NCBI GenBank assembly: GCA_017617035.1
Contig: JAFZWV010000019.1
Coordinates: forward strand, 1 to 39,264
DNA: 39,264 nucleotides
Direction of reading: 5' to 3'
Source of the DNA: Bacteroidales bacterium
GTDB taxonomy: Bacteria > Bacteroidota > Bacteroidia > Bacteroidales > UBA932
The notes under the pieces are model-generated. The model worked only from the letters and a program-made list of their open reading frames with translations, was not told the origin of the DNA and made no database searches. Of this stretch, positions 1 to 35,953 are shown piece after piece. Within the stretch, counting starts at the first letter, position 1. Every line of letters begins with the position of its first letter. The position numbers and the translations under genes are program-made.

Positions 1-339
1 CCCGATCAAGCCAGGTCCCATCCACCAGCATTCTTACGCTCTTACGCCTCTGTATAGACCACGCCGGGGCCTTATCCAGATACTCATCAAACCAGCGGCG
101 AAGATGGCGTTCACTGACACCACTCTCTTTAGCTATGTTCCAAATGGTTTGTTTGCCTAGTACCCATTTTCGGAACCACACAAACCGATTATTGGCACTG
201 ATATCTTTTCGACTGGATGTGAAAAGCAACTTGCAATCCCTGCATTTGTATCGCTGATGACCGGCTCTAGAACCCCATTTTATTACGTCAAGAGAACCAC
301 ATTTTGGACACCTTTGACGACGTCTTATTTTTGCCATAT
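1..339 (-). mobile_element. IS transposase, N-terminal part, cut by window edge
   Basis: Read on the minus strand from an ATG at 339, an open frame runs to the window edge (about 113 codons). It starts MAKIRRRQRCPKCGS and has a zinc-ribbon CPKC...YKCRDC pair in the first 40 residues. A helix-turn-helix-like stretch follows (TIWNIAKESGVSERHLRRWF), then LVDGTWLD, which resembles the strand carrying the first Asp of a DDE transposase. This N-terminal zinc ribbon plus HTH plus DDE order fits IS256/IS1249-like or related bacterial transposases; the exact family cannot be fixed from this fragment. The rest of the gene and the other IS end lie outside the window, so intactness is unknown. Confidence 0.75.
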
Positions 340-341
340 CA

Positions 342-373
342 CTAAATAGATGAAACGCGTTTCATCTATTTAG
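342..373. repeat. Perfect 32-bp palindrome in the transposase leader
   Basis: Both 16-base halves (starting CTAAATAGATGAAACG) are exact reverse complements with no spacer. The palindrome ends 2 bases before the transposase ATG on the minus strand. In RNA it would fold into one long hairpin over the ribosome entry region. It may be part of the IS end or a translational block; the true IS terminus, perhaps within 374-420, cannot be set without the other end. Confidence 0.8.
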
Positions 374-453
374 CCATAATTCTCTATAAATCAAAGGGTT
401 ATACCAGGTCTCACCAACCGAAAATGTCCATTAAACCGCGAAAGCTGAGCGAC

Positions 454-496
454 GGCACAAGAAGAGCATCGCCGCAAGCGATGCTCTTCTTGTGCC
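454..496 (-). terminator. Hairpin at the 3' end of tRNA-Leu(CAA), probable terminator or processing hairpin
   Basis: Two perfect 19-base arms (454-472 and 478-496) enclose a 5-base loop. The arm nearest the tRNA includes the last bases of the acceptor strand and the discriminator, so hairpin and mature tRNA compete for the same bases. There is no clear T-run after it on the minus strand, so a standard intrinsic terminator is only likely, not certain. Confidence 0.6.
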
Positions 497-577
497 CAAA
501 GCCGGGATCGAACCGGCACGTCTTTAAGGGACACTGGATTTTGAGTCCAGCGCGTCTACCAATTCCGCCATTCGGGC
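493..577 (-). tRNA. tRNA-Leu, anticodon CAA
   Basis: The minus strand gives GCCCGAA at the 5' end pairing with TTTGGGC at the 3' end, followed by discriminator A. The anticodon arm CTGGA-CTCAAAA-TCCAG puts CAA at the anticodon. The T-arm contains GGTTCGATCC. The long variable arm and 85-nt length fit a class II tRNA-Leu reading UUG. CCA is not encoded. Confidence 0.95.
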
Positions 578-613
578 TGGTAGGGTTGGGGCCCAGAAGG
601 GCGCAACCGAGGG

Positions 614-644
614 CAAAGGTAGCGCAAAAACGCGATTATTCAAA
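614..644 (-). promoter_or_regulatory. Bacteroidetes-type promoter for tRNA-Leu(CAA)
   Basis: On the minus strand TTTG (641-644) is followed after exactly 19 bases by TACCTTTG (614-621), the -33/-7 pattern of the Bacteroidetes primary sigma factor. Transcription would start near 610, about 30 nt before the tRNA. Confidence 0.8.
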
Positions 645-667
645 TATTATGGCTAATTTCGCGTATA

Positions 668-1738
668 ATGAAGAAACAGGCATACATAGTTTACGACCTG
701 GCGGTAGAGGAATTTGCAACGCGGCTGCAGAAGCAGTGGAGCAAAGACGGATACTGCGAGGTGAAGGGCACAATGAGCATTGTGGCCACCGAAGAAGATA
801 AAAGTCTTGCGACGGTTCAAGCGATATGCAGTTGGCTGCTGGCGATGGGGGCGCCGAAGGGCGCGACGCTGGTGGCTGTCGGAGGCGGAATCACTACAGA
901 TGTCGTGGGGTTGGCAGGCGCCATCTACAAAAGGGGTATGCCCGTAGAGGTGGTTCCTACGACCCTTCTGGCTCAGGTCGATGCTGCGATAGGGGGCAAG
1001 ACCGGAGCCAACATCGACGGCGTGAAAAACGCGGTCGGAACTATTACCCTTCCGGCGAAGGTCCACCTGCTCGCCGAGCCACTGAAGACTCTGCCGGCAC
1101 GGGAGCTGAAGTCCGGCTCGGCCGAGCTTATCAAGACCTTCGCCCTCTTCGACCCCGAACTCTACGATAAGGCAGTTAGACTCTTCTCGTTGGTCAATGG
1201 CGCAGGATATACCCGCGAAGCAATCGATGCCGCAATTCCGGACATAATCGAACTCGCCAGGCAGGCGGCAAAATACAAGGAGAAAGCCATCAAAGGCGAC
1301 CTGTTTGACAAAAACAAACGGCATCTGCTGAACTTTGGCCACACATATGGCCATGCAATAGAGTGGTGGCAGAATGTCGAAGGAGGCCATGTCGCGACAA
1401 AAGTCGGGACATCTCCCTACGACGGCGTAGGGAGTAGTACCAACTTTTTACTCGCGGATTACTCCCATGGCGAGGCGGTGGCGATAGGGATGGTCCAGGC
1501 CGCACGGCTGTCGGAGATCGACGGGCTCGCGGAGCCGGGGCTGGCGGCGAAGCTCGCCGCAGATCTCGAAGCGTGCGGCCTCCCTACTCAGCTCCCGACC
1601 AAGGCGGAAGACCTCCTGCCTGCAATTGAAAACGACAAAAAGATAGACGGCGACAAGATAGATTTCGTGTACATCAAAGCACTCGGCAAACCCGTTCTTA
1701 AAAAGCGTCGCCCCAAAGACATACTGATCCAAGGATGA
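668..1738 (+). CDS. aroB: 3-dehydroquinate synthase with an in-frame palindromic insert
   Basis: Converts DAHP to 3-dehydroquinate, the second step of the shikimate pathway, in the cytoplasm using NAD+ and a divalent metal. Family motifs are clear: VAVGGGITTDVVG (about 69-81), VPTTLLAQVDAAIGGKTG (96-113), RELKSGSAELIK (145-156), NFGHTYGHAIE (222-232) and HGEAVAIGM (267-275). The last two usually lie about 10 residues apart; here 34 residues separate them. The extra ~24 residues coincide with a 50-bp imperfect palindrome (1399-1448, residues 244-261), so an element seems to have inserted without breaking the frame. The metal-ligand His residues on both sides are kept, so activity is plausible but untested. 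The stop overlaps the next start as ATGA, pointing to translational coupling with aroDA. Confidence 0.95.
   Translation: MKKQAYIVYDLAVEEFATRLQKQWSKDGYCEVKGTMSIVATEEDKSLATVQAICSWLLAMGAPKGATLVAVGGGITTDVVGLAGAIYKRGMPVEVVPTTLLAQVDAAIGGKTGANIDGVKNAVGTITLPAKVHLLAEPLKTLPARELKSGSAELIKTFALFDPELYDKAVRLFSLVNGAGYTREAIDAAIPDIIELARQAAKYKEKAIKGDLFDKNKRHLLNFGHTYGHAIEWWQNVEGGHVATKVGTSPYDGVGSSTNFLLADYSHGEAVAIGMVQAARLSEIDGLAEPGLAAKLAADLEACGLPTQLPTKAEDLLPAIENDKKIDGDKIDFVYIKALGKPVLKKRRPKDILIQG
1399..1448. repeat. Palindromic element copy 1, inside aroB
   Basis: Arms 1399-1420 and 1427-1448 pair at 18 of 22 positions around a 6-base loop. The arms share the ACTACTCCC / CATCTCCC core seen in the copies at 8345-8388 and 22519-22562. 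Relationship to those two is judged by eye from short shared cores, so it is likely but not proven. Confidence 0.75.
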
Positions 1739-3711
1739 TCTGCACAACAATCCAGAATAAAACCTACGAGGAGATTCTGTCTATTCTCGACGACCCGTTC
1801 GTGGAGATGGCGGAAATACGCCTCGACCTCAACAACCTTTCGGACGAAGAAATAAAGGACCTTTTCGGTAGTAGCGAAAAGCCGCTGATTGCGACATATC
1901 GCATAGCCCCTCAGCCTGACATAAAAGCGCTAAATCAACAATGGGAAAAAGCCCTGCGCAAAATGTCGCAGGCTGTCGAGGCGGGCGCGCGCTTTGTCGA
2001 TGTCGACCTCGGCGCGCCGGTTAATATCAGCAAATACTTCCAGAAGCTTTGCCACAAAACCGGCACTGAACTAATCAGGTCCTACCACGACTACGAAAAG
2101 ACTCCCGATCTGGAATACCTTCAGCAGATCAAACAGCGTTGTTTCCGCTATGGAGCCGATGTGGCGAAAATCGTCACGACGGCCCAAACGGAAGAAGACA
2201 ACGAAATCATAAAACGACTCTACGACCAGGAGCAAAGCAGGCTCGTCGCTTTCGCGATGGGCGCAATCGGCCAGCAAACCCGTATCGACTGCCTCAAACA
2301 GGGCGCCCCCTTCACCTACGCCGCCTACGACGAGCCGGCCGCTGAAGGTCAGCTGCCGATAGTAGAAATGCACGAAAAGGTCTACGGCGACTTCCTGGGC
2401 CTCTACAGAGCAGATTTTAAAATCCCGGCTTCGAAGAGTTTCGCGCAGAGGGCAATCATCGCCGCGGCGCTTGCCGAAGGCACCAGCCACCTCAGCAACT
2501 ACACCCCCTGCGACGACTCAGAATCGGCCGTGAGGGTAGCGCGGTCGCTCGGCGCGAAGGTCGCCCGCAAGGGTAGCGCGCTGACCATTGAGGGCCTTGG
2601 CCCGATCAAAAATAAGCTCACGGTCGAGCGCATCAACGCCGGCGAATCCGGCATCCTCGCCCGCCTGATGATCCCCATCCTCGCGCAGGTAGCCCAGTGC
2701 CCCGTGTCGATCGAGGGGCGCGGGACTCTGCTCAAACGCCCGCTCGCGGCCGCATCCGATATCATGGCCGCGTTTGGCGTGATCCTGCGCAACGAGGCCG
2801 AGTACGAAGGCCGCGAAATCCATGTCCCCCTCGCGGTCAAGGGCGAGCTCATCGCGGGCACGGCCGACCTCCCGGGTAAGCCCGGTTCGCAGTTGGTATC
2901 CGGTGTCCTCATGGCCCTGCCGCTGAACCCCAAGAACTCGAAGGTCTACGTCGGCGAGCCGAAGTCCATCCCGTACATGTTTATCACGCTCGACGTCCTC
3001 CGCAAGTTCGGCATCAAGGCGGGCGCGCAGCTCGAGGGCAACGCCGACATGCTGGCCCAGCAGGACTGGAGCTACTGCACCGGCATCAACTTCACCATCG
3101 ACGGTGGGCAGAGCTACAAGGCCGCGGACCTGACGCTGGAAGGCGATTGGAGCGCCGCCGCCAACTTCCTGGTCGGCGGCTCGCTCTTCGGCAGCGTGGA
3201 GCTCCGTGGCCTCGACACCTCCTCACTGCAGGCCGACATCTCGATACTCGACGTGCTGGTCGAAGCGGGCGCGGCTGTGGCCTACGATGAAGACACGGTC
3301 TGCGTGAAAAAAGGCCCGCTCGAGGCGTTCGACTTCGACCTCAGCCAGGCCCCGGACATCTTCCCGATAGTCAGCCTGCTCGCCGCATTCTGCCAGGGCA
3401 CGTCGACCATCGCGGGCGTGGGGCGTTTAAGGGGAAAGGAGACGGACCGCGCTGCGGCCATAGTCGAAATGCTCACGAAGATGGGCGTGAGCGCGTCGAT
3501 CGAAGGTGACATCCTCTCGGTCGAAGGTGAGACGCTGGCCTCACGCATCCTGAACGGCCGGCTGCTCAAGGGCGGCAACTACACTGCCCATAGCGACCAC
3601 CGTATGGCCATGGTCTTACGCATCGCCTCTATCGCGGCCGACAGCCCGATAGTGATAGACGACACCGCCTGCGTGGCGAAGTCGTTCCCAGAATTCTTCG
3701 AACAGTTCTAG
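1735..3711 (+). CDS. aroDA: Fused 3-dehydroquinate dehydratase (type I) / EPSP synthase
   Basis: A 658-residue protein joining two shikimate enzymes. Residues 1-220 are a type I dehydroquinase: EIRLDL near 27-32, catalytic His in SYHDYEKTP (H118), Schiff-base Lys in ADVAKIVTTA (K145), and FAMGAIGQQTRI with the substrate Arg (R183). Residues from about 226 are EPSP synthase: PASKSFAQRA (231-240), DWSAAANF, the PDIFPIVSLLAAFCQGTS segment, GRLRGKETDRAA and HSDHRMAM near the end. Each half is close to normal length and no motif is visibly missing, so both activities are expected. The ATG overlaps the aroB stop by 4 bases. The fusion puts steps 3 and 6 in one chain while the intermediate steps (aroE, aroK) are not in this window. 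The 3' end overlaps the convergent lipoprotein gene within CTAG. Confidence 0.93.
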   Translation: MICTTIQNKTYEEILSILDDPFVEMAEIRLDLNNLSDEEIKDLFGSSEKPLIATYRIAPQPDIKALNQQWEKALRKMSQAVEAGARFVDVDLGAPVNISKYFQKLCHKTGTELIRSYHDYEKTPDLEYLQQIKQRCFRYGADVAKIVTTAQTEEDNEIIKRLYDQEQSRLVAFAMGAIGQQTRIDCLKQGAPFTYAAYDEPAAEGQLPIVEMHEKVYGDFLGLYRADFKIPASKSFAQRAIIAAALAEGTSHLSNYTPCDDSESAVRVARSLGAKVARKGSALTIEGLGPIKNKLTVERINAGESGILARLMIPILAQVAQCPVSIEGRGTLLKRPLAAASDIMAAFGVILRNEAEYEGREIHVPLAVKGELIAGTADLPGKPGSQLVSGVLMALPLNPKNSKVYVGEPKSIPYMFITLDVLRKFGIKAGAQLEGNADMLAQQDWSYCTGINFTIDGGQSYKAADLTLEGDWSAAANFLVGGSLFGSVELRGLDTSSLQADISILDVLVEAGAAVAYDEDTVCVKKGPLEAFDFDLSQAPDIFPIVSLLAAFCQGTSTIAGVGRLRGKETDRAAAIVEMLTKMGVSASIEGDILSVEGETLASRILNGRLLKGGNYTAHSDHRMAMVLRIASIAADSPIVIDDTACVAKSFPEFFEQF

Positions 3712-5003
3712 TCGATTTCGGCCTCGAAGCAGATTCGCTGGCCTTTAACGAGGTGGTCGCACTCGATTGCCGGTGCGCCCGTTGCATCCACCGTTATCCA
3801 GACTTCGTTGCCAGGCATCAGGCTGGCGAGGTTGTAGTCGGCACGCTTGCTGCCCACGGCCACCCATGCGTCGCGGTAGATAGGTGCAACTCCTACGTTG
3901 GCAATTAAGATGGCGGTCTTGCCGTCGCCTACTCGGTAGTCGCGTATTCTGAAGCGGTATCCCATGGAGAGCGAGGCTTCGCGTATGCGGTCCCAGGTCT
4001 GGTATGAGCGCTGGTCGGCGCCGATGATGAAGGTCATGTGGAACTTCGCGACTTCGTCTTCGAACTTCCTGCCGTACATGCCGGCGGCGTCGAGACAGTG
4101 ACGCTGATCATAGTCTGAATAGTAGCTGAATTCACCTCCAAGCGGAGCGGTCTTGTAGCGCTCTTCGCCGAAAAACTTCCAGCTGCGGTAGTTGTAGCCG
4201 TCGTGGTCCTCACACATGAACGAGTCGTCGAAGTTGCCGAAGCGGAGGTTCAGCAGGTCGGGATATTTCTGGAAGGGGCCGTAAGTGTTGTCGGCCGCAT
4301 CGATGGAGATGCTCCATGTCGTATGCGTGAACCACTCAGACATGCCGCGCATGAACTCTGCTTGGAAGTCCTTGTCCGGGAAGGTCTGTCCCATCTTGAA
4401 AGGACCGTCGTAGATGTGGTACTCAGCCCATAGACCGAAGCCCGTTTCGAGGAATGCGAGGCGAGGGTCGGTGTCGTAGCGTTTGGCCAGAGCTTTATGG
4501 AATTCGAGGTGGAAACGTTTCAGCTCGTCGCAGCGCCAGTCGGGGAAGTAGGTCGTGCGGCCCTCGGACTTACCGACAGTCTCTTCGTAGCCCGGCCATG
4601 CCTTTATGTAGTCGGGAACCGTGCATTTCTTGCCGACATAGGTGTAATGGAAACGAATCACCGCCTGGTGGCCGCGGCTGGCAATTCCTTCGAGCAGATT
4701 GTCGAGAGCAGTCCAGTCATATACATCCTTTTCCTTGCAGATGGAATTGTACTCCATGTATGAATACTCCAGCTGGATGTCGTCCGTTTTCGAGGGGGCC
4801 CACATGACGATGCCGGTCATGGGCTGCACTTTAGTGATGCTGCTCTTGAGGGACGTTCTTGTCAGGGAGGCGTATTCGTCCGGGACGGTGATTTTGTCCG
4901 AGATGGTCTGCTGGTCGTCGGTTTGCTGCTGATTGTCGGTCTTTTCAGGCCCGCAAGCTATCAGGGTCAGCGCGGCGGCAAAAAGGGTGAGGAAACGTTT
5001 CAT
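3708..5003 (-). CDS. Secreted lipoprotein, DUF4832/DUF4874-like, putative TIM-barrel glycosidase-like
   Basis: A 431-residue protein with lipoprotein signal MKRFLTLFAAALTLIAC (Cys17), then a Gln/Asp-rich linker. The body has features of glycosidase-like barrels: SRGHQAVIRFHYTY, a long middle with ETGFGLWAEYH, and NLRFGNFDDSF. The C-terminal part (GYRFRIRDYRV...ILIANVGVAPIYRDAW) resembles the beta-sandwich end of DUF4832 proteins, a family often found in polysaccharide loci. The family name is from memory of its pattern and catalytic residues are not assigned. A -7 box TAACTTTG lies 5 bases before the ATG, so the mRNA is probably leaderless or nearly so. It is divergent from the GDPD lipoprotein across 37 bp. 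Confidence 0.75.
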   Translation of the reverse strand: MKRFLTLFAAALTLIACGPEKTDNQQQTDDQQTISDKITVPDEYASLTRTSLKSSITKVQPMTGIVMWAPSKTDDIQLEYSYMEYNSICKEKDVYDWTALDNLLEGIASRGHQAVIRFHYTYVGKKCTVPDYIKAWPGYEETVGKSEGRTTYFPDWRCDELKRFHLEFHKALAKRYDTDPRLAFLETGFGLWAEYHIYDGPFKMGQTFPDKDFQAEFMRGMSEWFTHTTWSISIDAADNTYGPFQKYPDLLNLRFGNFDDSFMCEDHDGYNYRSWKFFGEERYKTAPLGGEFSYYSDYDQRHCLDAAGMYGRKFEDEVAKFHMTFIIGADQRSYQTWDRIREASLSMGYRFRIRDYRVGDGKTAILIANVGVAPIYRDAWVAVGSKRADYNLASLMPGNEVWITVDATGAPAIECDHLVKGQRICFEAEID

Positions 5004-5008
5004 GTAGG

Positions 5009-5036
5009 CAAAGTTAGAAAAATAGTGGTAACTTTA
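5009..5036. promoter_or_regulatory. Divergent -7 boxes between two lipoprotein genes
   Basis: The minus-strand box TAACTTTG (5009-5016) ends 5 bases before the ATG at 5003. The plus-strand box TAACTTTA (5029-5036) ends 4 bases before the ATG at 5041. The second box has one mismatch to TAnnTTTG. The whole intergenic gap is 37 bp, so the -33 region of each promoter must lie over the other promoter or the opposite gene. Confidence 0.6.
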
Positions 5037-5040
5037 CGTT

Positions 5041-7107
5041 ATGAAATTCCGCCGCATTCTAATAACGCTTTTACTGATGGCTGCCTGTCTGCCGCAGCCA
5101 GCTGTAGTTCCTTCGCCCGAGCCTGAACCCGTCCCCGTCCCGCAGGAGGAAGCGCCTTATCTCGCGGCTAAGGCTGATGTCCGGTCTGTCACGGAGCCCG
5201 GCTCACTGGTTACTGTTCTTGTTCGCTCCAACTACGATTGGGCGTATTCAATAGACAGTCCGCTCCTGGTGGAGCATTCCGTGACAGACAGTACTCTGGT
5301 GCTGTCTTCCCGCCTGAACAGGTCTGCCGACGAAACGGTTTCGATTAGCATTATTTCGGGTAAAGACAGGAACCTTTCGACTACCGTTCAGGTTAAGGTC
5401 AAGTGTGGTTTGATAGTGGATTTTGAATTCGCAAGCGACGGAACGGCCCGCGATGCATCACCTAATGCTTATGGCGTGATTACGCGGCCTGGTGTCAATA
5501 TGATAACCTACTACAACGAATCGGCCGGGCGAAATGTCGCGCGATTCGTGGGAGGACTGGGCGATTTGATTTCGGACGGGTTCTACAAGTTCGACTACAA
5601 TATCAACAACACCGTAAAGGAGGGTTTGGCTGATGGGCATTCCATGGAGGTTATGTTTATGCTCGGTCAGGAACTTGGTTCTGTCGGCGAGGTGAAACCG
5701 TTTTCTTCGATGGAGCAGGGAGGGACAGGATTCTTGATAACTGATGCTTCTCGCGGTAGGGAGATAACATTTTTGCCCAACACGACCGACGCCGGCGGTA
5801 AGAGCTGGCGCTGGTGCCGCAGCGGGATAGTGCCCGAAGTGGGCAGGTATTACCATGTAGTAGGTGTGTGGGACAAAGCCGCCGGCAAGGCGCGCATCTA
5901 TGTGGATGGCTCGCTTTGTGCCACGGTCGATGCCGCCGGGTCGTTCAACTTTCCTTCAGGCGGGGCATCCCAGTGGTTTGCGGTCGGTGGCGATCCGTCG
6001 GGGGCGTCGTGCCAGTCGACATGGAACGGAGACATCGTGATTGCGCGCATTTACGACGTCGTTTTGGATGACGCTGCGGTTGCTTCGTTGTGGGCTGAAG
6101 CGCCTAAGAATATGGCGGAGCCGTCTATTCAGATATCGAATGTGTTGTATTTGTCTGAATGCCAGGTCGCTCCGGGAGGACAGTTCGTAGTTGCCGGAGA
6201 TGGATTCAAGGCGGGGGATAAGCTGATCTTCGAAGGTTCGGAACGTTATGAGTGTTCGACTGTTATCGAGAGCGATAGGGCAGTAGCTGTGATTCCTGCA
6301 GGGCTGGCCAGCGATACATATAAGATACTGGTTGGCCGCGGGGCGGAATCCGCTCCTATAGGGGGCGTTCAGTTGACCGTGACTGCCAATCCGCGCGCGT
6401 TGCGTGTGCCGAAGATTGTCGCCCACCGCGGATTCCACATGGGCGGCCGCCCGGAAAACTCTATCGCCGCATTGAAAGCCGCGCAGGATGGAGGCTATTA
6501 TGGATCAGAATGTGATTTGTGGATTACTACAGACGGGGTTATTTATATCAACCACGACGGAGTGATTAGTGGTAAAAAGATTCAAGACTGCAGCTCTGCT
6601 GATCTTGCTTCGGTTACGCTTTCTAACGGCGAGCCTTTGCCGACTCTCCAGCAGTATTTGGCGCAGGCTAAGTTGAATACTTCAACCAGGTTGGTAATCG
6701 AAATAAAACAGCATTCTTCCGAGGAGCGCTCTTTAGCTTGTACCGATGAGATGCTTCGTCAGGTCGCGGAGGCGGGTTTGTCTGATTACGTAGATTACAT
6801 CAGTTTCAGTCTGCCTGTCTGTAAGCGCATCGCCGCCGCCAGGCCAGGCGCGACCGTCGGCTATCTGACATCGACCAAAGATTTGTCCGGCTTGAGGGCT
6901 GATGGGATCAACTGTATAGACTTCGCCTATACATATTTATTCCCTTATTCGTTCTTGTTCGACGAAGCCCACGTTCTTGGCATGACAGTCAATATCTGGA
7001 CTATCGATTCCGCCTCCGACATGATGCGCGCCATCGGTCTCGGCGCCGACTACATTACCACCAACCGGCCTGATATTTTGGCCGATATTATCGACAGATT
7101 CTTTTAG
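5041..7107 (+). CDS. Multidomain lipoprotein ending in glycerophosphodiester phosphodiesterase
   Basis: A 688-residue surface or periplasmic lipoprotein. The signal MKFRRILITLLLMAAC is followed by a Pro/Glu-rich linker. About residues 43-120 look like a BACON-type carbohydrate-binding domain (SNYDWAYSIDSP). About 125-355 is a LamG/concanavalin-like domain (GRYYHVVGVWDKAAGKARIYVDG). About 365-450 is an IPT/TIG-like Ig fold. Residues 456-688 are a GDPD barrel with all hallmarks: HRGF (H462), RPENS, SECDLWITTDG (metal-binding Glu and Asp), NHDG, EIKQH and a final GADYITTNRP. GDPD enzymes cut glycerol-phosphodiester bonds. The binding domains point to a polymeric glycan or lipid-linked substrate (inference). 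Next to susCD and facing another phosphodiester enzyme, it probably belongs to the same pathway. Confidence 0.88.
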   Translation: MKFRRILITLLLMAACLPQPAVVPSPEPEPVPVPQEEAPYLAAKADVRSVTEPGSLVTVLVRSNYDWAYSIDSPLLVEHSVTDSTLVLSSRLNRSADETVSISIISGKDRNLSTTVQVKVKCGLIVDFEFASDGTARDASPNAYGVITRPGVNMITYYNESAGRNVARFVGGLGDLISDGFYKFDYNINNTVKEGLADGHSMEVMFMLGQELGSVGEVKPFSSMEQGGTGFLITDASRGREITFLPNTTDAGGKSWRWCRSGIVPEVGRYYHVVGVWDKAAGKARIYVDGSLCATVDAAGSFNFPSGGASQWFAVGGDPSGASCQSTWNGDIVIARIYDVVLDDAAVASLWAEAPKNMAEPSIQISNVLYLSECQVAPGGQFVVAGDGFKAGDKLIFEGSERYECSTVIESDRAVAVIPAGLASDTYKILVGRGAESAPIGGVQLTVTANPRALRVPKIVAHRGFHMGGRPENSIAALKAAQDGGYYGSECDLWITTDGVIYINHDGVISGKKIQDCSSADLASVTLSNGEPLPTLQQYLAQAKLNTSTRLVIEIKQHSSEERSLACTDEMLRQVAEAGLSDYVDYISFSLPVCKRIAAARPGATVGYLTSTKDLSGLRADGINCIDFAYTYLFPYSFLFDEAHVLGMTVNIWTIDSASDMMRAIGLGADYITTNRPDILADIIDRFF

Positions 7108-7119
7108 CGTCCACCCGGC

Positions 7120-7232
7120 GGCGTGAAATGTAAAATCCTGAATATCAAGCGATAACGCAAAATCGCCCACCTGGTTTCGGGTAGGCGATTTTGTATAAGC
7201 GGCTAATTATCGGTTGGTTACAGTTTACGGCG
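7120..7232. repeat. Long inverted-repeat element, copy A (~113 bp), acting as a bidirectional terminator
   Basis: The outer arms (from 7121, GCGTGAAATGTAA; to 7232, reverse complement CGCCGTAAACTGTAA) and the inner arms (AAAATCGCC and GGCGATTTT) make an imperfect hairpin over the full length. The element fills the gap between two convergent genes and ends one base short of the stop codon of the leftward gene. Its length, ends and core match the copy at 23953-24066. Confidence 0.7.
7159..7192. terminator. Bidirectional intrinsic terminator core
   Basis: AAAATCGCC (7159-7167) pairs with GGCGATTTT (7184-7192) around a partly paired loop. T-rich ends on both strands suit termination of both convergent transcripts. 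Confidence 0.75.
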
Positions 7233-7233
7233 A

Positions 7234-8307
7234 TTAATGAGGGAGCTCGGAGATGATGATTGCGGAGGTGACGATGCGCTCGGCGCCGTCGGATGGGTTG
7301 TTCAGAATCTTTCCATCAGATCCTACTATGCAGGAAGATCCGCCGCCGTCGAAGTTGAGGGCGTCGACGCAGCCGAGAGCGCGAAGTTTCGCGGCGAGTT
7401 CGGCGAGGGTGTAGCCTTTACTGCCGCCCGAGCCGCGGCCGTCGCAGACGAGCAGTATAAGTTTACCGTCTGCCGTGATTCCGGCACCGGTGCGGGGATG
7501 CCGCCCGAATGCAGCCGTACCTCCGGCGTTGAGGCATTCGCCCCAATATGCATCAGTAGATATATCCACTCCATTTTTCAGGAGGCGCGGGCCGCCGCCC
7601 ATGGCCTCCTGCGGCTTCCACTCGAAAGCGCCTTCGCAGTAGTCGGCGGTCGGCGGCTCGCTCATAAATGTCTTCGTCTTTTCGTTGTTGTCCAACCAGG
7701 AGGGGAAAGCGGTGTGACCTTTGAATGCCGGTCTGGTGCAATATGCCCACTGTATTTCGAAATGACCGTCTTCCATCAGACCTATCGCGGATCGCACAGG
7801 ATAAATAGTACATTCGGCGTTCTCGTCATTGGGCCAGTTGAAGGCGCGGAAAGCCGAAACGGTAAAATCTCCCAGATGTGCGACAAGGCTGACTGAAGTA
7901 GAGCCGGCGAAGTATCCGCCGTTAGTCGCCAGACATGCCTTTCCCAATGAAGTGTCGAAATCTGCGAAAAATGCGGTCGGACCTTTCTTTCTCAGAGACC
8001 TGATACAATTGAACTTCAGATTGGGATTCTCCTTAAAATCAAGAGTTGCGACAAAACCGCTGCACTTGTTCCCGTCGGAGAAGGTCTCGGTGAAGGGCTC
8101 CACAGTCATTCCTACAGGATATCCGTTCACCCAACTCCAGTCACGCTCCGGCTCCGGAGGAGTCTGCTGGGTGGTGTCCGCGGGTTGAGTCTGAGTCGTA
8201 TCGACGGGCTCTTCAGGAGTCTGAGGACCCTGATGAGTCTGCGGAGTACAGGCGAAAGCCGCGAAAACGGCCGCTGCCGCGATAGCTATCAAATTGTTAC
8301 GGAACAT
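7234..8307 (-). CDS. Phosphodiester glycosidase (NAGPA/DUF2233-type) lipoprotein
   Basis: The family includes the uncovering enzyme that removes GlcNAc from GlcNAc-1-phospho-mannose, so this one probably hydrolyses sugar-1-phosphodiester bonds. Motifs seen are CLATNGGYF, AMGGGPRLLKNG, GRHPRTGAGI, LILLVCDGRG and NFDGGGSS (about 318-325), followed by NPSDGAERIV. The start used is the ATG at 8307, giving MFRNNLIAIAAAAVFAAFAC, a good lipoprotein signal (Cys20). An upstream ATG at 8334 would add nine residues before it. A Pro/Thr/Gln-rich linker follows the lipobox. It is divergent from susC with a palindromic element in the shared promoter region. Length of about 357 residues is normal for a secreted single-domain member. 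Confidence 0.88.
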   Translation of the reverse strand: MFRNNLIAIAAAAVFAAFACTPQTHQGPQTPEEPVDTTQTQPADTTQQTPPEPERDWSWVNGYPVGMTVEPFTETFSDGNKCSGFVATLDFKENPNLKFNCIRSLRKKGPTAFFADFDTSLGKACLATNGGYFAGSTSVSLVAHLGDFTVSAFRAFNWPNDENAECTIYPVRSAIGLMEDGHFEIQWAYCTRPAFKGHTAFPSWLDNNEKTKTFMSEPPTADYCEGAFEWKPQEAMGGGPRLLKNGVDISTDAYWGECLNAGGTAAFGRHPRTGAGITADGKLILLVCDGRGSGGSKGYTLAELAAKLRALGCVDALNFDGGGSSCIVGSDGKILNNPSDGAERIVTSAIIISELPH

Positions 8308-8344
8308 CGTCAAATACTGGTTATTAGTAACCACAAAGATAGCA

Positions 8345-8388
8345 TTTTTCGACTACTCCCCGTAATCGAGGGGGGAGAAGTCGAAAAA
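8345..8388. repeat. Palindromic element copy 2, between the phosphodiester glycosidase gene and susC
   Basis: Arms TTTTTCGACTACTCCCC (8345-8361) and 8372-8388 pair at 16 of 17 positions around a 10-base loop. Nearly the same arms occur at 22519-22562. It lies in the divergent promoter region and could act as a transcription barrier or mRNA 5' structure. Confidence 0.8.
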
Positions 8389-8435
8389 TCCAAGATTTTT
8401 CGTAATTTTACGTCACTAACGCTAATTGATAACCA

Positions 8436-11400
8436 ATGACCAAAACTAAACGCTTGAGATTCAAGCTTCCGGTTGCGGTTCTGACCTTGCTGTTAGTGGC
8501 CTCTCAGGCATTTGCTCAGACGCAAGTGACGGGAAAGGTGCGAAGCGAAGCAGGCCCTGAACCGGGAGTAATAGTCTTCGTGAAAGGTAATGCCGGCAGC
8601 GGAACTATGACAGACGCCGACGGCTCCTATTTCATCACGGTTAAGGGCCCGGGCGACATCCTGGTCTTCAGCCTCATGGGCTATAAAGAACAGGAAGTCA
8701 AAGTGGGCAATCGTACTAAGATCGATGTCCTGCTCGAAGAAGACGAAAACATCCTCCAGGAGGTTCTCGTCGTGGGTTACGGAACTCAGAAAAAGGAATT
8801 CGTCGTGGGTTCCGTCTCGCAGGTTAACAGCAAGGACCTCCTCAAAGCCCCGAATACTAACGTCAGCACGATGCTCACCGGCCGCCTCGCCGGCGTGACC
8901 GCCGTGCAGACCACTGGTATCCCTGGCGGCGACGCGGCCAGCCTGCTCGTGCGAGGAACCTCGACCTTCAACGACTCGTCACCTCTTGTTTTGGTCGACG
9001 GCGTCGAGCGCTCGATGACCTACCTCAACCCGAACGATATCGAGACTGTCTCCATCCTCAAGGATGCCGCGACAGCCGCTATCTACGGTGTGCGAGGCGC
9101 CAACGGCGTTATCCTCGTCACGACCAAGAGCGGCTCCCGCGGCAAGGCCCAGATAGTCTACGACGGCTCGGTATCCTTCGATACGAACACCGTCATCCCC
9201 GACCTTCTGACTGCAGACGAATACATCTACTGGCACAACAAGGCTCGCGAGATGGATAACCAGACCCCGTTCTGGACTCCGGAGCGCATCCAGAGCCTTA
9301 AGGATCGCGGCCTCTATGCCGAGACCGACAACTGGGCACTCATCTACAACGACTACGGTCTTACAAAGCAGCACAACCTATCGGCCAGCGGCGGAACAGA
9401 CAAATTCCGTTACTTCACCTCGGTCGGTTACATGAACCAGCATGGTATCCTGAAGAATACCTCGATGGAGCGCTACAACATCCGCGCAAACATCGATGCC
9501 CAGCTCAGCAAAGGCCTTCACTACAATGTTAATATGTCGGCCGCCAACACCGACAGGCTGTGGCCGGGCCTCAGCATGCGCTCCAGCAGCGGCACATGGC
9601 AGGGCGAGTTCTCGCCGCTGCGTCAGGCATGCTATGCAATCCCTATCCTTGCAACAGAGTATAACGGCCTGCCTCTCGGATACACCAACGGAACTTATAC
9701 CTACACTCCTCTAGCCGCCCTCGAAACCGGTTTTCAGAGTGAGAAGAGGTGGATGGGAGAAATCAGGTCGAACCTCGAATACGACTTCACTGCCCTTGAC
9801 CTGGAGATTCTGAAAGGCCTCAAGGCTGGAGTCAACCTTGCATACAACTTCGACTACACCCTCAACCGCAATTACCTGGAGAGCTTCCAGCTTTACTCCT
9901 ACAGCGCCACTACCGATCAGGTGGACCAGAAGACGTCGCTGGGAATCGGCGAAAACAACTTCAACAAGTCCCATTCGATAGGCTACAACATGACCATCCG
10001 CCCGCAGGTCACCTATAACCACGACTTCGGAAAGAACCATGTTTCCGCGCTGTTCTTTATGGAGCGCTATACTTACCATGGTGACACGATTACCGGTTAC
10101 AAGACCGGCTTTGCCGAAGGATCGCCTATCGACCTTAACCATGGCGAGAAGTTCCCTTCGACCGCAGCATCAGGCGGCTACAGCAATTCCGGCCGTTTCG
10201 GAGCGGCTGGGCGCATCAGCTACGCTTACGACAAGAAGTATCTTGCCGAGGCTACGCTTCGCGCCGACGCCTCCTACAAATTCGACCCGGAACACCGCTG
10301 GGGCTACTTCCCCTCACTGGCCCTCGGTTGGGTGCTCACCGAAGAAGATTGGATGAAAGACATTCAGTTCCTCAACTTCTTCAAGCTCCGCGCCTCCGCC
10401 GGTATTCTCGGCCGCGACGATACTGAAGCATATCTATACATGCAGACCTACAGGTCGACCTCGCCAAGCATTACCCATTACATCAACGGCTCGCCGACCT
10501 CGATCTACTACACCTCCAACTACGTCTACAACGACCTGACATGGTCGCGCACCAACACATACAACGTGGGCTTTGAGTCCAAGGCCTTCGGCAACAGGCT
10601 TTCGGTCGAACTCGACGTCTTCTACAAACTTACCTCGCGCATCCTCGAGTATGACGACACCGGTTTCTACGCCCCGTCGCTGGGTGGCAACAACCCCGTA
10701 TGGATGAACACCGGTAAAGTAGACAACCGTGGCTTCGATATGACCGTCAGTTGGGGTGACGCCTTCGCCAACGGCTGGAGCTACACGGTGACCGGCATCA
10801 TCGGCTGGTCGCGCAACAGGCTCATTTCCAGGCGCCTGTCCGACTCCTACCCTTCGTACCGCGCGCAGCTCGGCCAGCCTATGGGTTCGTACTACGGCTT
10901 CCATGCCCTCGGCCTCTTCCAGACCCAGGAAGAAGTCGATCAGTATCCCCAGGCCCCTACCGGCTGGGCTGAGGTCGGAGCGATCAAGTATCAGGACGTC
11001 AACGGCGACGGCAAGATCAGCTCGACCGAAGACTTTGTGAAGATAGGCCGCTCCAGTACCCCGGAGATGACCTTCTCGATGAACTTCGACGTCGCTTACA
11101 AACGCCTCTCGCTCAGCGTCCTCATGCAGGGCGCGACCCTTTGCGATTACGTCCTCTGCGGTACATGGTCCAACGGCAACATGGACAACACTATGTACAC
11201 CCGCGCCTTCTACGGCGGCGGCAACACCCTCCGCTATCTGGTCGAAGACGCATGGACACCCGAACACACCAACGCGCATTATCCCAGACTCTCGTCTAGC
11301 ACCAACGCCAACAACGCATGGCTCTCCGACTGGTGGGTGCGCGACGGTTCCTACCTCCGCGTGAAGAACGCACAGCTGGCCTACGACTTCCCGTCGAAGT

Positions 11401-11564
11401 GGTTCGAAAAGACTCCTGTTTCCAGCTGCCGCATCTTCGTCGCAGGAACCAACCTTCTCACTTTCTCGTCGTTCAAGTACATTGACCCTGAGAATCCAGG
11501 TATCAACAACGGATACTATCCTCAGCAGAGGACTGTAAGTTTCGGCGCTAAAGTCACATTCTAA
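8436..11564 (+). CDS. SusC/RagA-family TonB-dependent outer-membrane transporter
   Basis: A 1042-residue protein that imports oligosaccharides or similar ligands through the outer membrane, powered by TonB-ExbBD and working with the SusD lipoprotein encoded next. The signal peptide ends at QAFAQ. A carboxypeptidase-regulatory-like domain (about 30-112) is followed by the SusC signature QEVLVVGYGTQKK, a plug domain with LVLVDGVERS and AAIYGVRGANGVILVTTKSG, and a long beta-barrel ending in a C-terminal aromatic strand (FGAKVTF). There is no STN signalling domain before the plug, so control by a partner anti-sigma factor is unlikely. No ECF, HTCS or SusR-type regulator is near, so the regulator is unknown. 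susD starts 1 base after the stop. Confidence 0.95.
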   Translation: MTKTKRLRFKLPVAVLTLLLVASQAFAQTQVTGKVRSEAGPEPGVIVFVKGNAGSGTMTDADGSYFITVKGPGDILVFSLMGYKEQEVKVGNRTKIDVLLEEDENILQEVLVVGYGTQKKEFVVGSVSQVNSKDLLKAPNTNVSTMLTGRLAGVTAVQTTGIPGGDAASLLVRGTSTFNDSSPLVLVDGVERSMTYLNPNDIETVSILKDAATAAIYGVRGANGVILVTTKSGSRGKAQIVYDGSVSFDTNTVIPDLLTADEYIYWHNKAREMDNQTPFWTPERIQSLKDRGLYAETDNWALIYNDYGLTKQHNLSASGGTDKFRYFTSVGYMNQHGILKNTSMERYNIRANIDAQLSKGLHYNVNMSAANTDRLWPGLSMRSSSGTWQGEFSPLRQACYAIPILATEYNGLPLGYTNGTYTYTPLAALETGFQSEKRWMGEIRSNLEYDFTALDLEILKGLKAGVNLAYNFDYTLNRNYLESFQLYSYSATTDQVDQKTSLGIGENNFNKSHSIGYNMTIRPQVTYNHDFGKNHVSALFFMERYTYHGDTITGYKTGFAEGSPIDLNHGEKFPSTAASGGYSNSGRFGAAGRISYAYDKKYLAEATLRADASYKFDPEHRWGYFPSLALGWVLTEEDWMKDIQFLNFFKLRASAGILGRDDTEAYLYMQTYRSTSPSITHYINGSPTSIYYTSNYVYNDLTWSRTNTYNVGFESKAFGNRLSVELDVFYKLTSRILEYDDTGFYAPSLGGNNPVWMNTGKVDNRGFDMTVSWGDAFANGWSYTVTGIIGWSRNRLISRRLSDSYPSYRAQLGQPMGSYYGFHALGLFQTQEEVDQYPQAPTGWAEVGAIKYQDVNGDGKISSTEDFVKIGRSSTPEMTFSMNFDVAYKRLSLSVLMQGATLCDYVLCGTWSNGNMDNTMYTRAFYGGGNTLRYLVEDAWTPEHTNAHYPRLSSSTNANNAWLSDWWVRDGSYLRVKNAQLAYDFPSKWFEKTPVSSCRIFVAGTNLLTFSSFKYIDPENPGINNGYYPQQRTVSFGAKVTF

Positions 11565-11565
11565 G

Positions 11566-13233
11566 ATGAAAAGATTATTTGCAATTATAGCAGCGGCACT
11601 CGCGCTCAGCGCCTGTTCAGACTGGATCGACGACGCACTTGATATAGATCCCTCCGATCGTTACTCTGTAGCTACCGTATGGTCCAGCGCAAACAGTGCA
11701 GATCAGTATCTGCTCGGCCTGTACAACTACATGAAGGAGACCAACGGAACGGTCGGTGGCGACAGCAATATGGCTATCTTCTGGGATGCTTACTCGGACC
11801 TTATCAAGTCCAACTCCTGGAACCAGTACAACCATCCTTACAACACCGCCTTCCTACAGGGAACCTTCCCCAACACATATGCGGGCGTCTTTGAGACATG
11901 GAGTGATTCATACACCAGAATCCGCAGGTGCAACGAGTTCCTGCGCGACGCTCCGGTCTACGGCCCCAGAATAAGCGATGATTATGCGACTACACGCTCC
12001 GCTGAAATGCGCTGCGTCCGTGCGTACATCTACCTCCGTCTGATGAAGATCTACGGTAAGTGCATAATCCGCGACAAAGTCGACGGTCCGGCCGAGAATG
12101 ACAAGGCTCTCGCCAGCCCCGACGAAGTATGGGACTTCATTGAAGATGACCTCCGCTATGCCGGTAGCAATATCAGGAAGAACCAGCCTCGCGGGCGCAT
12201 CACGCGCGCCTACGCCTGGGGTCTCCTTTCCAGCGCGGCCCTCTATGCCCAGCGTTGGGACCTTGCCATCGAGGCCGCAGACTCCTGCGAGGCCTATGGC
12301 GGAACTCTCGATCCCAGCTACGCCAACATTTTCGCGGACATCGACAGCCCCGAGCACCTGCTGACTTTCGAGTTTATGCAGAATAAGCTCACGCACAGGG
12401 CCGACGTCTTCTTCCGTCCGCTCGGCGACGGTGCCCAGGGCGGAAAGCACCCCGGAGCCAACGTCTACGCGGTGTTCGGCCCGACTTCGGAGCTGGTCGA
12501 CTCCTACGAGATGGCCGACGGTACGCCGTTCAGTTGGGAGACCCACGGCGCCGACCCGTACACCGGCCGCGAGGAGCGCTTCTACGCCAGCATCCTTTAC
12601 AACGGTGCGCCTTGGGAGGGTAGGACGATTGAGACCTTCGTCAGCGCGGACACTACCGTGTTCAAGGACGGCCTCGACAAGATTGTGGAGTTCAACATCT
12701 CCGGAGCCGCCGGTTCCACGGTCACTGGCTACTACCTCCGCAAGTTCATAACCGAGAACCAGACCGGCTGGGAGAAGTACGGCAGCGACCATTTCGGCAT
12801 CTCGATGCGCTTCGCCGAGGTTGTACTCAACAAGGCCGAGGCCTACGCCCAGAAGGGCGACTTCGTCAACGCCTACCTGCAGCTCAACCGCATCCGCGGC
12901 AGGGTCCACCTCCCCGAGAAGAACGGAGCTGACCTCGCTACGGCCATGGCCGACATCAAGCATGAGCGCATGGTCGAGCTCGCGGGCGAAGGCCAGCGTT
13001 TCTGGGACCTCAGGCGCTGGAAGGACGCGGTCGATGTGATCAACGAAAAGAATTTCCACGGCTGCAAGATCACCAAGAAAACGGACGGAACCCTGACTTA
13101 CGAGCAGGTAAGTTGCGACGGCACCGGGAAGATCCACACCTTCCTTGAAAGCTACTATGCCTTCGCCCTGCCGCTGACAGAGATCAACAATAACAAAGCA
13201 ATCAGCCAGTCGGACCAGAATCCGGGATGGTAA
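11566..13233 (+). CDS. SusD/RagB-family substrate-binding lipoprotein
   Basis: A 555-residue surface lipoprotein that caps the SusC barrel and binds the ligand. The signal MKRLFAIIAAALALSAC gives lipidation at Cys17. Typical features are RIRRCNEFL, MRCVRAYIYLRLMKIYG, RITRAYAWGLLSSAALYAQ (TPR-like helices), then RFAEVVLNKAEAYAQ, LNRIRGRV, IKHERMVELAGEGQRFWDLRRW and the final NPGW. All SusD landmarks and the normal length are present. Its tight spacing after susC is the canonical pair. The ligand cannot be told from sequence. Confidence 0.95.
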   Translation: MKRLFAIIAAALALSACSDWIDDALDIDPSDRYSVATVWSSANSADQYLLGLYNYMKETNGTVGGDSNMAIFWDAYSDLIKSNSWNQYNHPYNTAFLQGTFPNTYAGVFETWSDSYTRIRRCNEFLRDAPVYGPRISDDYATTRSAEMRCVRAYIYLRLMKIYGKCIIRDKVDGPAENDKALASPDEVWDFIEDDLRYAGSNIRKNQPRGRITRAYAWGLLSSAALYAQRWDLAIEAADSCEAYGGTLDPSYANIFADIDSPEHLLTFEFMQNKLTHRADVFFRPLGDGAQGGKHPGANVYAVFGPTSELVDSYEMADGTPFSWETHGADPYTGREERFYASILYNGAPWEGRTIETFVSADTTVFKDGLDKIVEFNISGAAGSTVTGYYLRKFITENQTGWEKYGSDHFGISMRFAEVVLNKAEAYAQKGDFVNAYLQLNRIRGRVHLPEKNGADLATAMADIKHERMVELAGEGQRFWDLRRWKDAVDVINEKNFHGCKITKKTDGTLTYEQVSCDGTGKIHTFLESYYAFALPLTEINNNKAISQSDQNPGW

Positions 13234-13246
13234 AAAAGGAAGAAGT

Positions 13247-13675
13247 ATGAAAAGGATATTCAGCATAATTGCTATTGCGGCGCTTGCCCTTGGGGCGAAC
13301 TCCTGCGCCAAGCCCGACGCCGATTTTGTCCACGACGACGCTTCCATCAGCGCCATCTACATCTGTACTACCCAGAAAGATGTGACCGGAAAGGAGAAGC
13401 CGATAAGCTTCGCCGGAGTGATAGACCAGGATTCCGGCAATATCGTTTTTACGGTTTCCAAGGATAAGCGTAAGGATATCGACCTGGATGCCGTCAAAAT
13501 CAGGGCGAACATCGGTTTCGACGCATATGTAAAAGTTACCCGCGAGGGAGGAAAAGATGTGGACCGCACCCTCTACGGAATCCACGATATTACCGATGTG
13601 ATAGACCTGACCGTCACGGCTAAAATGACCGGAACGACTAAGGATTATCACCTCTATGCAAAGATTGAAAAATAA
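13247..13675 (+). CDS. Small lipoprotein of the susCD operon, unknown function
   Basis: A 142-residue protein with signal MKRIFSIIAIAALALGANSC (Cys20). The mature part is a single predicted beta-rich domain (SAIYICTTQK...ISFAGVIDQDSGNIVFTVSKD) without catalytic motifs. Its ISFAGVIDQDSGNIVFTV pattern is like the N-terminal part of the next protein (TINAFIDPVDKTVEIT), so it may be a free-standing DUF5018-type Ig-like domain. It starts 13 bases after susD and probably is an accessory glycan-binding surface lipoprotein (inference from position). Confidence 0.7.
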   Translation: MKRIFSIIAIAALALGANSCAKPDADFVHDDASISAIYICTTQKDVTGKEKPISFAGVIDQDSGNIVFTVSKDKRKDIDLDAVKIRANIGFDAYVKVTREGGKDVDRTLYGIHDITDVIDLTVTAKMTGTTKDYHLYAKIEK

Positions 13676-13696
13676 CCGCTTAATACTTTTAACACG

Positions 13697-15214: not shown

Positions 15215-15217
15215 TCG

Positions 15218-16420: not shown

Positions 16421-16422
16421 AT

Positions 16423-17811: not shown

Positions 17812-17812
17812 T

Positions 17813-17853
17813 GAGATTTCTCCATGCGGCCTTCGGCCTTAGTCGAAATGACA
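17813..17853 (-). repeat. REP-like repeat, copy 2, after the susCD operon
   Basis: On the minus strand it runs TGTCATTTCGACTAAGGCCG...GAGAAATCTC, with a GGCCTTCGGCC hairpin tip replacing the usual centre. It lies in opposite orientation to the copy at 17876-17911, with the sufB promoter between them. Confidence 0.8.
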
Positions 17854-17862
17854 AAAAATAGT

Positions 17863-17870
17863 TACCTTTG
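17863..17870 (+). promoter_or_regulatory. -7 box of the suf operon
   Basis: TACCTTTG matches TAnnTTTG exactly, 43 bases before the sufB ATG. No clear TTTG is seen 19 bases upstream. The mRNA leader starting just after it is made almost entirely of the repeat at 17876-17911. Confidence 0.6.
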
Positions 17871-17875
17871 TTAAC

Positions 17876-17911
17876 TGTCATTTCGAGCGAGCGAAGCGAG
17901 TCGAGAAATCT
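17876..17911 (+). repeat. REP-like repeat, copy 3, in the sufB leader
   Basis: TGTCATTTCGAGCGAGCGAA...GAGAAATCT on the plus strand, ending 2 bases before the sufB ATG. Its arms TTTCGA(g)CGAG / gCGAGTCGAGAAA can fold into a hairpin in the mRNA leader. Confidence 0.85.
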
Positions 17912-17913
17912 TA

Positions 17914-22226: not shown

Positions 22227-22296
22227 TGTCATTCCGAGCGCAGCGAAGGAATCTGTGCTTGTCATTTCGACCAAGCGAAGCGCGTGGAGAAATCTC
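22227..22296 (+). repeat. REP-like repeat pair, between rimM and the small membrane protein gene
   Basis: First unit 22227-22254 (TGTCATTCCGAGCG...GAAGGAATCT) and second unit 22260-22296 (TGTCATTTCGACCAAGCGAA...GAGAAATCTC). The same pair, in the same order, occurs at 35884-35953. The second unit ends at the stop codon of the leftward gene. Confidence 0.85.
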
Positions 22297-22502
22297 TATT
22301 CTCCAGCTTCTAGGTGCCCTTTATTAACAATAAAGTGCCGCATGCCGTACCAGTAGGCGAAATAGCCGACCCAGCTGAAAAATAACACCAGAAGCCCCAG
22401 TAAGAGTTTGGGGAAGAACTTCAGCGTATGCTGTCTCCAGAGATCCATCGCCGAGATGAACCCCGGAATCAGCCCAACCAGGTATATAATCAACAGAATC
22501 AT
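22296..22502 (-). CDS. Small two-helix membrane protein, unknown function
   Basis: A 68-residue protein with two predicted membrane helices (ILLIIYLVGLIPGFISAM and KLLLGLLVLFFSWVGYFAYW) joined by a short basic loop. No family recognised. Its ATG overlaps the ispE stop (ATGA), so it may be translated from the queH-ispE mRNA. A -7 box TATCTTTG (22507-22514), inside the 3' end of ispE and 4 bases before the ATG, could also give it its own leaderless transcript. The stop codon touches the repeat at 22260-22296. Confidence 0.7.
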   Translation of the reverse strand: MILLIIYLVGLIPGFISAMDLWRQHTLKFFPKLLLGLLVLFFSWVGYFAYWYGMRHFIVNKGHLEAGE

Positions 22503-23302
22503 ACCTCAAAGATACTCATTTTTGGACTTCTCCCCCCCAAATTACGGGGAGTAGTCGAAAAAATCCCGTACACGGCAGCACCGCTTCCGGACATGGAGGC
22601 GTAGATGGCGCCGTCGCGATACATTTGTTCTTTAAGGGCGGCGATTTCGGGGTGCGAGGCGAAGACGGTGGCTTCGAAATCATTCACTACGCGTCCGCTC
22701 CACTGGTCTACGGGGAGACTAATGGCTTCCCTTAGAGGTTCTGACGTTTCGTGAGGGGTTAAACCCTTATACGCTTCCGCAGTGTTGACGTGGACTCCTG
22801 AAGGGATGGCGATGCGGATTTCATAGTCGGAAAGGTCTATGTCTGCAGGCTCAAGAATGTCGCCTATCCCTGATCCCCACTGAGGCACTCCCTTAATGAA
22901 GAATGCGCAGTCGGCGCCGAGGCGGCCGGCGAGTTGTTCCAGGCGCTCAATCGGAAGGTTCAGCTCGAAGAGTTCATTGAGCATCCCCAGCGCGCAGGCG
23001 CCGTCGGCCGAGCCGCCTCCCAGCCCTGCTCCTACCGGGATATGCTTGATCATTCTGATGGCGACGGGTCCGATTCCATACTCATCGGCCATCAACCGCC
23101 ATGCTTTCGCCGTAATATCACCCATGGGATTCCAGTATGCGCCTTCGATGTTGATCGAGAATGTTTTGGAGCGTACGATTGACAACTCGTCGTGGAAAGC
23201 GTCTACCGGGTAGAAGAGCGTCTCGATATCATGGAATCCGTCCTCCCTTTTTCGAAGGACGTTCAGACCGATGTTTATCTTGGGAGTAGGGTAGCAGATC
23301 AT
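22499..23302 (-). CDS. ispE: 4-diphosphocytidyl-2-C-methyl-D-erythritol kinase
   Basis: A 267-residue GHMP kinase of the MEP isoprenoid pathway that phosphorylates CDP-ME. Key parts are YPTPKINIGLNVLRKREDGFHDIETLFYP (residues 4-32 region, Lys8), the ATP loop PVGAGLGGGSADGA (89-102), the catalytic Asp in GADCAFF (D131), and the GHMP C-terminal motif SGSGAAVYGIF. After YGIF the usual C-terminal ~20 residues are replaced by sequence read through a palindromic element (residues 247-262), ending MSIFEV. Function should not be lost, because the active site lies before it. It overlaps queH by 4 bases. Confidence 0.94.
   Translation of the reverse strand: MICYPTPKINIGLNVLRKREDGFHDIETLFYPVDAFHDELSIVRSKTFSINIEGAYWNPMGDITAKAWRLMADEYGIGPVAIRMIKHIPVGAGLGGGSADGACALGMLNELFELNLPIERLEQLAGRLGADCAFFIKGVPQWGSGIGDILEPADIDLSDYEIRIAIPSGVHVNTAEAYKGLTPHETSEPLREAISLPVDQWSGRVVNDFEATVFASHPEIAALKEQMYRDGAIYASMSGSGAAVYGIFSTTPRNLGGRSPKMSIFEV
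22519..22562. repeat. Palindromic element copy 3, encoding the IspE C-terminus
   Basis: Arms 22519-22535 (TTTTTGGACTTCTCCCC) and 22546-22562 (GGGGAGTAGTCGAAAAA) are near-perfect complements. The reverse complement of this copy aligns with the one at 8345-8388 almost base for base. It lies in frame at the end of ispE. Confidence 0.85.
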
Positions 23303-35883: not shown

Positions 35884-35953
35884 TGTCATTCCGAGCGGAA
35901 GCGAAGGAATCTAAACTGTCATTTCGACCAAGCGAAGCGCGTGGAGAAATCTC
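35884..35953 (+). repeat. REP-like repeat pair between S9 peptidase and transglutaminase genes
   Basis: Unit 1 is 35884-35912 (TGTCATTCCGAGCG...GAAGGAATCT) and unit 2 is 35917-35953 (TGTCATTTCGACC...AAATCTC). It is the same double structure as at 22227-22296. It ends exactly at the stop codon of the leftward gene. Confidence 0.85.

Follow-up and report, generated by a model that had tools for sequence, protein, structure and literature searches.

How a palindrome came to be translated in frame within a conserved enzyme, and whether it accounts for the length of the loop in which it lies, are the questions raised by the aroB gene of this Bacteroidales genome. The gene occupies positions 668..1738 (+ strand) of the window, by which we mean the whole stretch of 39,264 nucleotides analysed, and encodes 3-dehydroquinate synthase in an intact frame of 356 amino acids that contains the element. 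The protein is complete, with both domains matched in Pfam (DHQ_synthase and DHQS_C); NCBIfam yielded only matches below the cut-off. Between the window and its sister species, dN is 0.071 and dS 0.971 with the loop excluded; aroB is under purifying selection and carries the element in frame. Immediately downstream, overlapping the end of aroB by 4 nt, is a gene in which a type I 3-dehydroquinase is fused to EPSP synthase (DHquinase_I and EPSP_synthase, 1735-3711).

The loop extends from GHAIE to HGEAVA (1364..1465, + strand). It had been predicted to hold 34 residues where about 10 are normal, and 34 are indeed present; the same spacing is 9 and 8 residues in the PDB relatives 6lk2 and 6c5c (counted on alignments). 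The commonest length is 13 residues, found in 39 of 121 AroB loops (from 126 loci examined, with a motif missing in five; the set holds the same contig twice in four pairs, L038/L047, L039/L049, L042/L048 and L043/L051, and includes some loci of other families of the order). Flanked by two conserved His motifs, the loop is highly variable in length, ranging from 6 to 59 residues among the loops surveyed.

The palindrome occupies 50 bp at 1399..1448 (no strand assigned), is translated in frame as KVGTSPYDGVGSSTNF, and corresponds to AroB residues 244-261. Its predicted fold has an energy of -22.9 kcal/mol against a shuffle mean of -10.25 (z = -4.57), and none of 200 shuffles did as well. By blastn, the palindrome matches five other places in its own genome at 76-87% identity over 39-55 bp, with E values reaching 1e-10. 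A pattern search of that genome gave 8 forward and 8 reverse matches versus 0 and 1 for the reversed pattern, although the 16 include both strands of one place and two matches (C14, C17) that on inspection do not look like members of the family; in the window alone, with up to three mismatches, the same search gave 2 matches against 1.58 expected, which is not significant. The palindrome originally predicted within aroB is thus real, and is an in-frame copy of a dispersed repeat in a member of the Bacteroidales.

The prediction that related elements lie elsewhere in the window also held. One type C palindrome lies between genes at 8342..8391 (no strand assigned), at a site whose ortholog in the sister species is occupied by a copy identical at 45 of 50 positions (L176). 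Another, at 22516..22565 (no strand assigned), is a C-terminal capture, supplying codons about 246-263 of a 267-amino-acid GHMP kinase gene (22499..23302, - strand; Pfam GHMP_kinases_N and _C) which we take to be ispE. Both fit the covariance model of the family (E = 2e-10 and 3e-10, respectively), but as both are among its 21 training sequences this shows family fit and not independent discovery. The 21 copies align over 50 columns without gaps; three of five measures of covariation lay above all 500 shuffles and two did not (157 and 227 of 500 were as high), in a control that leaves the relatedness of the copies in. Counted strand-wise, the model matched at least 84 times in the window's genome (G000), at least 47 in that of the sister species (G265), at least 41 in G278, at least 22 in G235 and 0 times in G094; these are lower bounds, because 150 of the 350-604 first-look candidates per genome were scored and the counts are of the matches listed.

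From 60 regions around listed matches, together with the window, we located 81 sites: 37 in G000, 20 in G265, 16 in G278 and 8 in G235. With genes called by a script of our own that failed to pick up the type A RAYT gene, and counting genes that score at least 20, a cut that leaves out short frames at L194 (73 amino acids, a whole copy inside) and L140 (91 amino acids, a 32-nt overlap), 53 sites are intergenic, 24 touch a gene by at most 10 nt, and one overlaps the end of a long gene by 39 nt (L175). Only three lie wholly inside a gene, namely aroB twice and the end of an ispE-like gene once, whereas 80% of 50-mers drawn at random from the same loci do so; this is the genome count of in-gene copies that had earlier been proposed, and among the 81 sites aroB alone carries internal in-frame copies by the same gene score. 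The 3' end of a gene lies within 20 nt of 42 copies and the 5' end within 20 nt of 18, and 66 of the 81 have at least three of six frames open. The family is thus nearly always extragenic, often near gene ends, and dispersed. Given that 77 of the 81 sites are extragenic or touch a gene by at most 10 nt, we regard it as a REP-type family that is extragenic and only rarely captured in frame, not a coding-adapted one (for the definition of REPs see PMC12306157). At ten loci (L141, L183, L185-L187, L189, L192, L194, L196 and L197), type B2 palindromes from different genomes have some 130-360 bases of flanking sequence in common with one another, usually on a single side, as though they belonged to a larger repeat.

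RAYT genes flanked by REPs have been described (PMC2817692). On contig C9 of the window's genome, type A copies, one on each side, flank a RAYT-like (HuH/Y1) gene. With its product, which is homologous to RAYT/IS200-like transposases, as query, homologs of at least 49% identity are found at G235:C17 (97%), G278:C75 (56%), G265:C5 (52%) and G000:C19 (49%), and all five genes, which form one clade, have a palindrome of their own type on both sides: type A at G000:C9 and G235:C17, B2 at G278:C75, B at G265:C5 and C at G000:C19. For homologs of 38% identity or less, the flanks were viewed by hairpin scan alone. H60, H62, Y120 and N124 are invariant in all eight aligned RAYTs, with a HuH-Y spacing of 58 residues (H62 to Y120). 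The type A RAYT has no Pfam match at E 0.001 (20.0 bits against a cut-off of 23), and the Y1_Tnp cut-off is passed by the G265 homolog and missed by the G278 homolog; we place the type A protein in the family because it is homologous to the one at G265:C5, which passes. NCBIfam has no family for it, and a PDB sequence search with a RAYT returned one designed protein (E = 0.063). By eye, no unpaired GT[AG]G foot is present in the alignment or at the 81 sites, any GTAG being within the stem; the flanking REPs are near-perfect palindromes, and their own orientation is therefore not readable.

Two further observations concern these genes. The RAYTs of G235:C17 (L111) and G000:C9 (L110) are 97% identical while AroB of the same species is 80% identical, which suggests recent transfer. 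In another RAYT-like gene (L106, G265:C1; about 2290-2360 and 2509-2590), the C-terminal part itself contains in-frame CACAGGGTAAG..TACCCTGTG palindromes, with near-identical copies just downstream; this is similar to the REP insertions within tnpAREP genes known in subclass 2.4 (PMC6006769).

The aroB copy combines two of these types. Its left arm and tip, which carry the type A signature ACATCTC-CCTA, resemble type A at 15 of 17 and 13 of 16 positions, respectively; its right arm, with the type B2 signature GAGTAGT, is identical at 17 of 17 positions to the arms of type B2 copies from G278 and G235. The unpaired positions in the core of the hairpin are those at which the REP types differ. 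Judged by these matches, the window's copy is a chimera of two REP types.

The relatives show a mixed picture at this site, and with it a mixed outcome for the refuting condition attached to the original prediction, under which all of them would have the extension and none a palindrome. The window and the sister species (L038, G265) form a supported pair both in a tree of AroB without the loop and in one of the gene that follows it; outside this pair come L039 and L040/L042, then the outgroup L041 and then L050. The sister has a loop of 44 residues with a hairpin of its own, of type B, the type that flanks its own RAYT. Insert-free relatives, which the original prediction had proposed to look for, include L039, L040 and L042, with loops of 21 residues and no hairpin. 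The loop of L041 has 35 residues and no hairpin, and has QNVDGGHVA and LAN in common with the sister; the L041 genome does contain copies of the REP family elsewhere (25 strand-wise matches). The loop was thus long before, or apart from, the palindrome. The idea that the palindrome is the surplus therefore stands only in part: the element does lie within the loop, but it supplies about 17 of the 34 residues, and the 35 residues of the outgroup, without a palindrome, mean that it does not explain the whole surplus.

We conclude, with a probability of roughly 85%, that the aroB element belongs to a family of REP-type palindromes whose copies are spread by cognate RAYT-like HuH/Y1 transposases. 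In the mechanism we propose, the RAYT would act on hairpins in single-stranded form, cutting and joining them in the way reported for TnpAREP of E. coli (PMC8266576, which also treats perfect-palindrome REPs and their recognition); a copy would have landed in an AroB loop that was already long, and would have persisted because the loop tolerates extra residues. REPs in place may later have been converted toward the type of the resident RAYT, giving rise to chimeric copies such as that in aroB.

Three other explanations have to be weighed against this. That the palindrome is ordinary loop coding sequence, palindromic by chance, might seem plausible given the 35-residue loop of L041 without a palindrome and loops of 6-59 residues in general, but the fold (z = -4.57), the flanking of a transposase-like gene by further copies and, decisively, the own-genome copies at E 1e-10 rule it out for practical purposes. 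Very improbable, and largely refuted by the positions of the copies (three of 81 wholly inside genes), is a palindromic element of the Rickettsia type, adapted to translation inside genes. The original prediction had drawn this likeness to inserters in coding DNA from an element that is in frame, internal to a protein and stop-free in the frame used, and the 66 of 81 copies with at least three open frames agree with it; the likeness is not borne out, since 77 copies are extragenic or touch a gene by no more than 10 nt and a cognate RAYT-like gene exists. It is unlikely, if less so, that the hairpin is kept in the aroB mRNA for regulation, for example of the downstream aroD-aroA fusion, as a terminator, attenuator or stabiliser. 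A strong stem with A-rich and T-rich ends is indeed reminiscent of a two-way terminator, a gene 3' end is found within 20 nt of 42 of the 81 copies, and the sister species has a hairpin of other sequence in the same loop; ribosomes, however, would open a hairpin inside a translated gene, and a terminator scan of window positions 1-20000 found 11 sites without the aroB hairpin among them, although its rules may exclude it.

Within the reading as a RAYT-spread REP copy, it can be asked whether the two aroB elements derive from one insertion. They are identical at 23 of 50 positions while their flanks are 81-85% identical, and other shared sites are far closer: L139/L165 and L150/L195 at 50/50, L162/L177 at 46/50, and the site at 8342 and L176 at 45/50. 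Three of these sites with 45-50 identical positions are shared between G000 and G265 and one between G000 and G235, and there are two besides at the near-identical G235 RAYT locus. Such low identity in aroB speaks for separate insertions or for replacement; a 30-nt difference between the two loops prevents matching of the left junction. At three other orthologous sites, type differs across species while the left junction falls within about one base (L138:1499 and L170/L169, L140 and L166, L193 and L175). In the L140/L166 case, the outer arms are identical at 17/17 and 16/17 positions and the tip differs, the left flank alone being shared. These type differences at matching junctions suggest that some orthologous REPs may have been replaced in place. 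Other orthologous gaps, namely L157, L149 and those at the C9 locus (Y and Z sides), argue for separate insertion, as the types differ there and the junctions fall at different positions. At L144, 28 nt in the sister stand against 99 in the window's genome between the aligned parts, in surroundings too divergent to read a target duplication, and at L164 the sister carries other sequence. Flank matches also indicate an inversion between G000:C9 and G265:C5 (L138, L168-L170), apparently with REP copies at both ends.

On balance, replacement in place is slightly favoured. That the two aroB copies are instead separate insertions of different REP types into one tolerant loop, and not an old insertion later converted, is a serious possibility toward which we lean a little less: it would account for the contrast between the 23/50 identity of the elements and the identity of their flanks and of other shared sites, it agrees with the non-coinciding junctions, and it has parallels both in the unrelated repeats taken up by the same loop in three other species and in the different REPs found at about the same recB site in two Xanthomonas species (PMC3733652). 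Conversion fits better with the one B2-type arm of the chimeric window copy and with the three other sites that change type at matching left junctions.

The repeats in the three other species differ from the palindromes described so far. The AroB loop of L053 (G187) contains a tandem repeat of CGGAATGACA type with 13 other matches in its own genome, that of L056 (G132) contains CCCGCAGGGTACC palindromes with nine other matches at seven places, and that of L029 (G022) contains a large inverted repeat matching ten other places, all in its central ~70 bases, with counts made per loop from a joined query. The L029 core also matches five places in G132 and two in G187; in the joined-query search, none of the genomes gave matches to both other loops. 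The REP model gave 0 matches at E 0.1 at the L053, L056, L029, L041 and L012 loci, and eight other long loops (25-35 residues) gave no second match in their own genomes. Among distinct loops of at least 31 residues, five of seven carry dispersed repeats and two, L041 and L012, do not. We tentatively suggest that the AroB loop of this genus may be a recurrent harbour for mobile repeats, in which REPs would hold their position and switch type to that of the resident RAYT by partial conversion, leaving chimeric hairpins; if this is true, a protein loop would record transposase turnover.

Other repeats were noted in passing. A dispersed 38-nt repeat (TGTCATTTCGA..GAGAAATCT) occurs in the window at 15220-15257, 17876-17913, 22260-22297 and 35917-35954, and on visual inspection resembles the repeat carried by the AroB loop of L053. 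An array of 52-nt and larger direct repeats at 38656-39232 appears by eye akin to the 52-nt-spaced palindromes beside a RAYT-like gene (L097, G000:C18). A SpoU rRNA methylase (L150:1846-2745, G000:C10) has an in-frame tandem repeat, APRDDNNEG three times followed by APQDDSVIPSEAKESRIF, between its substrate-binding and methylase domains, which by eye is a dispersed-repeat insertion.

A transposase-linked palindrome family, an enzyme of central metabolism (the shikimate pathway) that has captured a copy in frame, and insert-free relatives occur here together in closely related species, which makes REP spread, type change and the tolerance of the enzyme directly testable; they also present a case in which a conserved protein has gained residues from non-coding repeats, and has done so several times at a single site. 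In-frame REPs and the REP 'orthoswitch' have already been published. Among the open-licence PMC papers listed, none describes a 3-dehydroquinate synthase with palindromic repeats, none the conversion of one TnpAREP-linked REP to another, and none REPs in Cryptobacteroides, the putative genus here; neither the repeated use of the AroB loop nor chimeric copies that switch type were found in print within that scope.

Compared with REP/REPtron systems (PMC2817692, PMC6006769, PMC8266576), the family is alike in its short dispersed palindromes, mostly extragenic and near gene ends, and in a RAYT-like HuH/Y1 gene flanked by its own type, with RAYT and REP types varying together. It is unlike them in having no GT[AG]G foot, which is present and unpaired in canonical REPs, and in its near-perfect 50-bp hairpin with A/T ends, of which tens of copies were found. 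Subclass 2.6 of TnpAREP, from Bacteroidetes, is described in PMC6006769 as having atypical structures and no GT[AG]G consensus; its median HuH-Y spacing is 82 residues, against about 58 here.

Whole REPs inside genes and in frame, including those in recB of the two Xanthomonas species, are reported in PMC3733652, and resemble the present case both in the capture of whole elements by conserved genes and in the use of about the same site of one gene by different REPs in two species. There, intragenic REPs are highest in O. terrae and R. conorii; here the host belongs to the Bacteroidales, the gene is one of aromatic synthesis, and five species and four repeat families share one loop. The Rickettsia palindromic elements are similar in being translated in frame within proteins, but many of their copies are intragenic and some bear CGTC tags; for CGTC repeats, two Rickettsia element families among them, there is apparently no dedicated transposase according to the same paper. 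In the present family, three of 81 copies lie inside genes, and there is a RAYT-like gene. A parallel to the type differences is the 'orthoswitch' (PMC3686654), in which the REP classes flanking syntenic RAYT genes vary between related strains. In both, old variants may partly give way to new ones, but in the published model the originals stay and decay, whereas here copies at the same position differ in type and chimeras exist.
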